DNA of 40,703 nt from Pseudomonadota bacterium (GTDB taxonomy: Bacteria; Myxococcota_A; UBA9042): the NCBI GenBank assembly GCA_005792545.1, contig SXRM01000005.1:1-40703 (forward strand), given 5' to 3'. The notes under the pieces are model-generated. The model made no database searches. It saw only the letters and a list, made by a program, of their open reading frames with translations, and had not been told where the DNA came from. The translations under genes and the position numbers were made by a program. This document shows, one piece after another, positions 37,500 through 40,318 of this stretch; positions within the stretch are counted from its first letter, which is position 1, and every line of letters starts with the position of its first letter.

Positions 37500-37922
37500 A
37501 TGTACCGCTTGAAGATCTTCGTGGGTTGGTTGATGGCCGTGGTCGGCGCGTTCATGGTCGCGGTCTGGGTGCAGACGCTGGTCGACGGCGACCCAAAAAA
37601 CTCCGTGCTGACCCTGTTCTTCTGTGCCGCGTTCGCAGGCGGCGGCGTGCTTTTGCTGCGCTCGGGCAGCCGCGACCAACGCGCGCTGGGCCTGACCACG
37701 CCCAGCGGCGTCCAGGCGACTCCTGAAAAACTGGTGCTACAGGTGGCCCAACGCCAAGGCGGCACAGTGACCGCTGCAGAGGTCGCGGCGGATAGCCCAC
37801 TGTCGTTCGACGAGGCCCAGCAGGAGCTGGACAGTCTAGCGCGCAAGGGCGCCTGCGACGTCGATGCCACCGACCAGGGCGCCGTCGTCTACCGGTTTGC
37901 TGGCCTGCTGCCCAAGGGTTGA
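37500..37922 (+). CDS. Two-TM membrane protein with cytoplasmic winged-helix-like domain
   Basis: A 140-residue protein from ATG 37500. Two membrane helices are seen at about 5-25 (KIFVGWLMAVVGAFMVAVWV) and 36-54 (VLTLFFCAAFAGGGVLLL). Residues of about 70-135 (EKLVLQVAQRQGGTVTAAEV and on to GACDVDATDQGAVVYRF) have the look of a small winged-helix domain: helix, helix with T-A-A-E-V-A, then a beta hairpin. This design is common in unnamed membrane proteins of these bacteria. The stop codon is one base from the GTG of the FemAB-like gene, so both are likely co-translated. Confidence 0.7.
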   Translation: MYRLKIFVGWLMAVVGAFMVAVWVQTLVDGDPKNSVLTLFFCAAFAGGGVLLLRSGSRDQRALGLTTPSGVQATPEKLVLQVAQRQGGTVTAAEVAADSPLSFDEAQQELDSLARKGACDVDATDQGAVVYRFAGLLPKG

Positions 37923-37923
37923 T

Positions 37924-39072
37924 GTGACCGACGCCAGGCAGGTTTCGATTCATCCCGAGATCGACAGCGTGCCCGCCGCCGCGTGGGACGCGCTCGCCAA
38001 TCCGCCCGGCGCCGAAAGCAACCCGTTCGTTTCGCACGCATTCTTGCATGCGTTGGAAGCGTCGGGGTCGGCAACGCCAGAAAATGGCTGGACGCCGCAC
38101 CACTTGGCGCTGGGCGACGACGCTGGCCAGTTGCTTGCGGCGGCCCCCTGCTACATCAAAGCCCATTCGCTCGGCGAATACGTGTTCGACCACCCGTGGG
38201 CCGACGCGCTGCACCGTGCTGGCGGCCGGTACTACCCGAAACTGCAAGTCGCCGTGCCGTTTTCGCCGGTGCCCGGGCCGCGGCTGCTCGCACCAACGCC
38301 GGAACTGCGCCGCGAATTGCTGGGTGCGTTGCAAGAAACCTGCGCGCGCAATGGCTGGTCGTCGGCGCACCTGACTTTCCTGCCCGAAGCGGACGCCAAC
38401 GCTCTGGTCAGCGCCACCTGGCTGCGGCGTACTGACCTGCAATTCCACTGGCACAACCGTGGCTACGCTTCGTTTGACGATTACCTCGCGGAACTGTCGC
38501 ACGACAAACGCAAGCAGGTCCGCCGCGAGCGCCGCCAGGTCCGCGAGGCTGGCGTGCAGTTGCGCATCGTCGCAGGCGCAGACGTCACCGAGGCCGACTG
38601 GGACGCGCTGTTTGCCTTCTACCAGCACACCGGCGACCGCAAGTGGGGCCGGCCGTACCTGACCCGTGCGTTCTTCAGCCAGTTGGGCGCAGCGCTGCCC
38701 GAGGCGGTGGTGCTGGTGCTCTGCGATCGGGCCGGCCGCACCATCGCTGGCGCGCTGCACCTTCGCGGCTCGCATACGCTGTTCGGCCGCTACTGGGGCG
38801 CCACCGAAGAGGTGCCGTGCCTGCACTTCGAGGCCTGCTACTACCAGGCCATCGACTACGCCATCGCGCATCGACTGGACCGGGTCGAGGCCGGTGCCCA
38901 GGGCGCGCACAAGCTGGCGCGCGGTTATTTGCCCGTGGCCACGCACAGCTTGCATTACCTGGCGCGGCCTGACCTGCGCGCTGCCGTCGCCGAGTACCTG
39001 GTGCAGGAGCGGGCTGCGGTGGCGGCGGAAGCGCTTGGGGTGGGGCGGGGGCCGTTTCGGCAGGTGGTTTGA
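37924..39072 (+). CDS. FemAB-like / DUF482 acetyltransferase-fold protein
   Basis: A 382-residue protein from GTG 37924, with AAGGG 6 nt before it. It matches the DUF482 family (peptidoglycan biosynthesis/recognition, GNAT fold) end to end: an N-terminal NPFVSHAFLHALEASGS, APCYIKAHSLGEYVFDHPWA, a central YASFDDYLAELSHDKRKQVR (around residue 180) with its basic helix, and the C-terminal LHFEACYYQAIDYAIAH and EAGAQGAHKLARGY. FemAB relatives transfer aminoacyl groups from tRNA to peptidoglycan precursors or other amines; DUF482 has no proven substrate. It has no signal peptide. It follows the two-TM protein by one base. Confidence 0.85.
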   Translation: MTDARQVSIHPEIDSVPAAAWDALANPPGAESNPFVSHAFLHALEASGSATPENGWTPHHLALGDDAGQLLAAAPCYIKAHSLGEYVFDHPWADALHRAGGRYYPKLQVAVPFSPVPGPRLLAPTPELRRELLGALQETCARNGWSSAHLTFLPEADANALVSATWLRRTDLQFHWHNRGYASFDDYLAELSHDKRKQVRRERRQVREAGVQLRIVAGADVTEADWDALFAFYQHTGDRKWGRPYLTRAFFSQLGAALPEAVVLVLCDRAGRTIAGALHLRGSHTLFGRYWGATEEVPCLHFEACYYQAIDYAIAHRLDRVEAGAQGAHKLARGYLPVATHSLHYLARPDLRAAVAEYLVQERAAVAAEALGVGRGPFRQVV

Positions 39073-39188
39073 GGCCGATTTGGTGGGCGGCCCGTCAATG
39101 GCGGTGACCGTGGGACTCCATGGCCGCGCGCTGGCCACAGGGCGCCCGAGCGATGGGCATTCATTCTTTTGCACACACTCCATGTGTA

Positions 39189-39299
39189 GAGGCTGTTGCA
39201 AATGGGTGCGGGCAGGCTTCCACGCCTGTCCGATATCCCTGGAACCATTCACGTTTCGCAGCGGCCTTGGGCGCGTTTCTTGGCTTTTGCAACAGCCTC
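39189..39299. mobile_element. 111-bp MITE-like element with 14-bp perfect inverted ends
   Basis: GAGGCTGTTGCAAA at 39189-39202 is repeated exactly inverted at 39286-39299. The pentamer GTGTA lies directly outside both ends (39184-39188 and 39300-39304), a perfect 5-bp target duplication. There is no open frame inside, so it must have been moved by a transposase in trans. The ends resemble DDE-type insertion-sequence termini, but I cannot assign the family. Confidence 0.85.
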
Positions 39300-39425
39300 G
39301 TGTAGTGGTGGGGAATGCGCTACGTCTCAGGGCCACAGCGTCGCGATTGGCCCGCAGGGCCATGCCGCGTCCGCCATTCGCTTTGTAGCGCTGGACCCGA
39401 TAGACTGCTTCGGCTGGCGAAAAGG

Positions 39426-39499: not shown

Positions 39500-40318
39500 A
39501 TGCACGTCGCTGCCTTTTCCGCTGACGCCCCGGCCGAAGACATTCTGGTTTACCTCACACCCATTGCCGATAGCGTCCTTTCGCCGTCTGGCACGACTGG
39601 CCTCTTGCCCTCGCGCAAGATGGACATTGTCGGTCTGTACGCTGGCGCCAACCTGACGGCGACCCCCACGACACCGACACTGGTTCGCGCACAGCCATCC
39701 GCGCCGACGTTCATTCAGGTGATCACGCCGGCCATCCAGCCGCTCTCACCGACGGCTGCGCCCGACAGTGACCCACCGCTGCAGTTGCTTACCGATCACC
39801 CCCTGCCGCTGCCCGCGGGCGAGGCACTGACTGTGCAGGTTGAGGTCAGCGCGCTCTTGAGCACAGTAGCTGCCGTCGTGTTCCTGCGGGAGAAGTTTGA
39901 GCCGCTGCCGCCGGGGCCCATGTACACGCTGCGCGGTGTCGCGAGTGCGACAACGCCGACCTCGCGGTCGTGGACCCAAATCGCCATCACCTGGGCGCAG
40001 CAGCTCCCGGCCGGTCGCTGTGCGATTGCTTGGATCCAGTACATCGCGCCAACTGGGACCGCGGCCCCCATTGCCGCCCGTCTGGTGCTGCCCGATCAGG
40101 TGCTGCGGCCCGGTGCGTTGGCGCAACCGCTGGTGTCGAGCTTGCCCAACCGCCAGATGCAAGACGGCGTGTTTGGCCTGCTGGGCACGTTTGAGAGCTT
40201 TGCCATGCCGACCGTCGAGGTCCTGCAAATCGGGGCGGCCCCTACGGCCACAGGCGAAATTCACCTTGGCCTCATCCGCCTGACCGACGCCGCCGGCCGG
40301 CCTTGCCGCTGTAGTTGA
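39500..40318 (+). CDS. Uncharacterised protein, first gene of a compact operon
   Basis: A 272-residue protein from ATG 39500 with GAGG 8 nt upstream; longer in-frame starts at 39434 run through the 16-bp tandem repeat and are less likely. The sequence is rich in beta strands, Pro, Thr and Ala (YLTPIADSVLSPSGTTGLLP; WTQIAITWAQQLPAGRCAIA) and has no signal peptide or membrane helix. I do not recognise the family. The beta-rich composition and the next gene's resemblance to small virion proteins make a structural or particle-associated protein plausible. It is followed after 10 nt by the next gene. Confidence 0.7.
   Translation: MHVAAFSADAPAEDILVYLTPIADSVLSPSGTTGLLPSRKMDIVGLYAGANLTATPTTPTLVRAQPSAPTFIQVITPAIQPLSPTAAPDSDPPLQLLTDHPLPLPAGEALTVQVEVSALLSTVAAVVFLREKFEPLPPGPMYTLRGVASATTPTSRSWTQIAITWAQQLPAGRCAIAWIQYIAPTGTAAPIAARLVLPDQVLRPGALAQPLVSSLPNRQMQDGVFGLLGTFESFAMPTVEVLQIGAAPTATGEIHLGLIRLTDAAGRPCRCS

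Follow-up and report, generated by a model that had tools for sequence, protein, structure and literature searches.

What is the short sequence with inverted ends that separates a FemAB-like gene from an uncharacterised ORF in the window (the whole stretch of 40,703 nt analysed here), and what kind of transposase could have moved it? It is likely a non-autonomous DNA transposon, whose core would have been captured between different ends. Its parts and its neighbours are as follows.

37864..39072, + strand: upstream gene for a FemAB-like / peptidoglycan biosynthesis-recognition protein (PF04339, E 6.6e-152)
39184..39188, no strand: left target-site duplication, GTGTA
39189..39299, + strand: MITE of family A, 111 bp, without a gene of its own
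39189..39202, + strand: left terminal inverted repeat (TIR), 14 bp, GAGGCTGTTGCAAA
39204..39231, + strand: REP-like imperfect palindrome GGGTGCGGGCAGGCTTCCACGCCTGTCC, forming a hairpin with a 6-nt loop
39204..39258, + strand: conserved core (element positions 16-70)
39286..39299, - strand: right TIR TTTGCAACAGCCTC, the reverse complement of GAGGCTGTTGCAAA
39300..39304, no strand: right target-site duplication, GTGTA
39500..40318, + strand: downstream ORF of 272 aa without a family match

The inverted ends match at 14/14 positions and the target duplication at 5/5, in coordinates and sequence exactly as the first-pass annotation had described them, while the internal 28-bp hairpin (39204-39231) was absent from that description. 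A scan for perfect 14-bp inverted repeats lying 40-400 bp apart, with a perfect 5-bp direct repeat directly outside them, returned this site only in the 40,703 nt, and the chance expectation of such a structure is 0.005 per window (200 dinucleotide shuffles). The single-stranded DNA fold of the element was equalled in stability by 1/200 shuffles (z -3.5). The element is shorter than 0.5 kb, has terminal inverted repeats and lacks a transposase gene; by the features assessed, and leaving the parent IS aside, it is a MITE. No known RNA family was matched at the Rfam gathering score, and a plasmid search with the element gave no match.

The element starts 117 bp past the stop codon of the FemAB-like gene, and 200 bp separate its right end from the ATG of the 272-aa ORF. 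A pattern search saw no promoter-like or terminator-like site inside it, and its hairpin is not followed by a T-run; the window copy is an ordinary intergenic insertion without demonstrated effect on genes. The ‘virion-like operon’ earlier placed downstream found no support in Pfam, PHROGs or phage tblastn, which gave the 272-aa ORF no match. Between 39500 and 40703 there are 2-3 tightly packed small ORFs running off the contig end, which were probably the basis of that description; both of those tested lack a family match. The downstream ORF was not found near homologues of the FemAB-like gene in the genus. No allelic empty site of the window copy was seen in the genus, where the neighbouring FemAB-like gene is ≤69% identical.

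The source genome is a MAG (7.03 Mb, 435 contigs, 77.75% complete). Searching it with the element gave 19 matches, four of them full or nearly full length: besides the window copy there are three further copies of ~111 bp (76-82% identical) and about seven that are decayed or have exchanged ends. Local matches to the window copy are 82% identical on contig C16 (111 bp), 77% on C386 (111 bp) and 79% on C153 (102 bp); over the whole length, identities are 82% (C16), 77% (C386), 76% (C153), 73% (C246) and 70% (C319), with lower values for five more copies that have differing ends. Ten other copies match the core (positions 16-70) at 76-87% identity, even where the flanks are unlike GAGGCTGTTGCAAA; many core copies have degenerate ends, and the near-full-length copies on C386 and C153 show no clear target duplication. 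Judging from this sequence divergence, the family of the window copy is old and diverged. That the ends and the duplication are still perfect in the window copy suggests that it has decayed little since it inserted, yet gives no date. The first proposal, that a transposase still active elsewhere in this genome moved the element recently, is not borne out: the nearest copies are just 76-82% identical, and no autonomous element with matching ends was found in the assembly.

The clearest record of an insertion comes from C16, where the copy sits inside a 44-bp tandem repeat (unit CCGGTCCGCG) and interrupts one unit as ...GGTCC-[element]-GTCCGCG. Intact neighbouring units read CCGGTCCGCGCC and the occupied one CCGGTCC-[element]-GTCCGCGCC; the intact units in the same contig thus represent the empty site and show that the C16 duplication is the 4-bp GTCC. 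On C394, a MITE of another kind (~130 bp) has the same end type, no hairpin and a 5-bp duplication (GCAGC). In G045, a genome from another family of the same class, there are seven copies of a similar end, GAGGCTGTTGAAAAA, with right ends ...TCAACACCCTC or similar; of the duplications, read by eye, one is exact (CGGCG), one reads GGCCTC, and three match at 4/5 positions. The elements of the window, C16, C394 and G045 thus link this end type, independently of one another, to duplications of 4-6 bp. Together with the further genomic copies, the C16 empty site and the 4-5 bp duplications of independent copies uphold the original assignment as a MITE. G045 also has a REP-like hairpin of its own (GTGGAGCGCAGGC..GCCTGC), and at least two of the G045 MITEs (L431, L433) have inserted into its loop.

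The hairpin has a wider distribution than the element. Its pattern GGGTGCGGACAGGCTTCCACGCCTGTCC (≤2 mismatches) occurs at 37 sites in the source genome versus 0 for the reversed pattern used as control; among the 19 genomes covered, two of the same genus and one of another genus in the family (G007) gave a few matches, and the remaining 15 none. In the source genome the hairpin core is also found solitary, in tandem, as inverted pairs and within MITEs of a second family. Locus L229 (C207:20063-20179) is a head-to-tail array of three REP-like hairpins with 43-bp spacing. In G007 the hairpin reads GGGTAGGGACAGG and carries a GTAG tag, where the source genome mostly has GTGC.

The second family, found by systematic search around hairpin sites, consists of nine MITEs of 143-144 bp (loci L216, L219, L223, L227, L228, L232, L236, L240 and L241) with CAGGGC-type ends (CAGGGCNATCGCAA). 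They generally contain two inverted hairpins with the same stem sequence as the window element, and are flanked by mostly perfect 10-bp duplications (TACGCGTCCC, AACTACCGGC and others). Larger elements with CAGGGC-type ends on C265 and C194 have 10- or 11-bp duplications. The one on C194 (L407; C194:8804-9138) is 335 bp long, has CAGCGC/CAGGGC ends and a perfect 11-bp duplication (CGGCCACCCGG), and hosts a nested MITE with GAAGCTGTTGCAAAA-type ends, the end type of the window. Two other end types, on C319 (TIR GACTGTCGAA) and C433 (TIR CCTGCCTTCC), are both flanked by 8-bp duplications that match at 7/8 positions; as single copies these are regarded as tentative. The window's and the CAGGGC end types have GGCTRTYGCAA in common, so a distant relatedness is possible.

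The length of the target duplication is a property of the transposase, and duplications of 5 versus 10 bp around one hairpin therefore favour capture over descent from a single ancestor. Duplication length also serves to separate IS families (PMC2266710). At least two clearly different transposon end types around one hairpin suggest a passenger moved by more than one transposase. A REP-like hairpin would have been captured between transposon ends at least twice, and the captured core then amplified by different DDE transposases; the 10-bp family probably has an ISAs1-type donor. For the window family, the donor would be a DDE insertion sequence with GAGGCTGTTG ends and ~5-bp duplications; its transposase, missing from the assembly, may have moved the element by cut-and-paste, joining the inverted ends in trans to a staggered target cut. 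The hairpin probably plays a role at the DNA or RNA level, e.g. slowing read-through, and would not be needed for catalysis, given an element of the same end type that has no hairpin. We advance only tentatively, as quite possible, the broader reading that the hairpin core is a shared passenger repeatedly gaining the ends of different DDE transposons, i.e. an end-swapping MITE movable by several transposases. Within one genome such a passenger would have 5-bp, 10-bp and possibly 8-bp duplication classes. Both end types may also share an origin, the transposase having changed later.

It is doubtful, if less so than the other alternatives, that the hairpin belonged to an old transposon end from the start and that solitary hairpins are the decayed remains of MITEs, which would make capture unnecessary. 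The degenerate ends of many core copies are consistent with this, as are the G045 elements, which have a similar end and, about as far in from the left end, a hairpin (GCCGGCTTCCAGCCGGC). Set against it are the CAGGGC family, with the same stem in two inverted copies between another end and at another duplication length, the elements of the window's end type on C194 and C394, from which the hairpin is missing, and the solitary hairpins of G007, which have no such transposon ends. Homology of the family A hairpin with the G045 hairpin was also considered, and the alignment does not establish it.

Alternatively, the mobile unit could be the REP-like hairpin itself, moved by a RAYT, with the outer 14-bp repeats left from an older MITE that it entered. 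The solitary, tandem and inverted-pair occurrences are REPIN-like, the GTAG tag of REPs is carried by the hairpin of G007 (PMC3733652), and a RAYT-like gene is present in the source genome (C146). We nevertheless consider this unlikely: the 5-bp duplication adjoins the outer repeats rather than the hairpin, most copies in the source genome have GTGC instead of GTAG, and the RAYT gene is flanked by hairpins other than the window's, which is not found near it. RAYT movement of the window's hairpin is only a possibility. At C146 (L155), a different hairpin, CTGGGACCGCGGACGTCC[T/C]CGTCCGC, stands as an inverted pair on either side of the RAYT-like gene. Finally, it is highly improbable that the sequence is no transposon at all, its inverted repeats having arisen by chance or forming a transcription terminator in the intergenic space. 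The intergenic position and strong hairpin would suit this. Against it stand the 0.005 chance expectation, the other copies with duplications and the empty site, and the lack of a T-run behind the hairpin; the C16 copy already contradicts it.

For the preferred reading, a transposon with a captured core, a donor was sought from the ends. Searching the genome for the 14-bp end, as had been recommended, did not recover the parent insertion sequence. In the source assembly, GGCTGTTGNAAAA-like ends (≤1 mismatch) were not seen bounding a transposase gene, and none of its five DDE_Tnp_1 transposases is flanked on both sides by the window's ends. The end GAGGCTGTTGCAAAA occurs in none of 378 other genomes of the phylum that were searched; across the source assembly, the phylum genomes and two viral-contig scans, none of the elements found was autonomous and had matching ends, and a literature search did not find the end sequence as an IS end. 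The assembly lacks about 22% of the genome, and a parent IS may have been lost with it.

For the CAGGGC ends, more can be said. The end CAGGGC[T/G]ATCGCTA, a close variant of the one bounding the 143-144 bp elements, lies 124-140 bp from the start of >20 contigs, which points to high-copy insertion sequences having fragmented the assembly. More than 20 contig starts or ends (e.g. L416-L424) break ~125-140 bp inside insertion sequences with this end, of at least two kinds. The ISAs1 family has CAGGG-type ends and 8-10 bp duplications. Beside the end CAGGGCGATCGCAA at the end of contig C155, a partial protein (N-terminus) matches the ISAs1 transposase model (E 4e-10; 39 bits, below the curated whole-protein cut-off of 70), and an ISAs1-type high-copy element is probably the donor of the 143-144 bp family. 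A peptide next to a CAGGGC-type end on C202 has no family match. On C434 (L185), an IS4-like transposase ORF (476 aa) lies near an element of the 144-bp family that is cut off in its first hairpin; a second end was not found beside this truncated copy, so the ORF is not put forward as a parent.

Compared with known systems, the element resembles bacterial MITEs such as NEMIS, Nezha and ERIC (PMC3733652) in being short, non-coding and intergenic, with inverted ends, a target duplication, a hairpin fold and several copies. It differs in that its GAGGCTGTTGCAAA ends and 4-5 bp duplication are not known to match any named MITE, and in an interior that is a REP-like hairpin common to another MITE family. 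With REPs and REPINs (PMC3116915, PMC3733652) it shares a core palindrome of 20-30 bp, found alone or in inverted pairs, and a GTAG-tagged form in a related genus (GTGC in the source genome). Unlike these, its core lies between terminal inverted repeats with target duplications, which exclude a plain REP, and the RAYT gene of the source genome is flanked by other hairpins. Likeness to ISAs1 is confined to the sister 144-bp family (CAGGGC ends, 10-bp duplications, adjoining ISAs1-like protein), and the GAGGCT ends and 5-bp duplication of the window element exclude an ISAs1-derived MITE. IS701, ISH3 and IS1634 likewise generate duplications of 4 to 6 bp, with conserved outer bases (---YACT, CRGT and C-----YT, respectively) that do not fit GAGGCT (PMC2266710, Table 1), so derivation from these was rejected.

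The biology of MITEs and that of REPs are already known (PMC3733652, PMC3116915); a narrow literature search found no description of one core between several end types in one genome. The shared core touches on two questions, the origin of MITEs and the spread of REP-like hairpins. A genome in which one hairpin lies between at least two end types, with duplications intact, would be a testbed for distinguishing hairpin capture from deletion of full insertion sequences as the source of MITEs.
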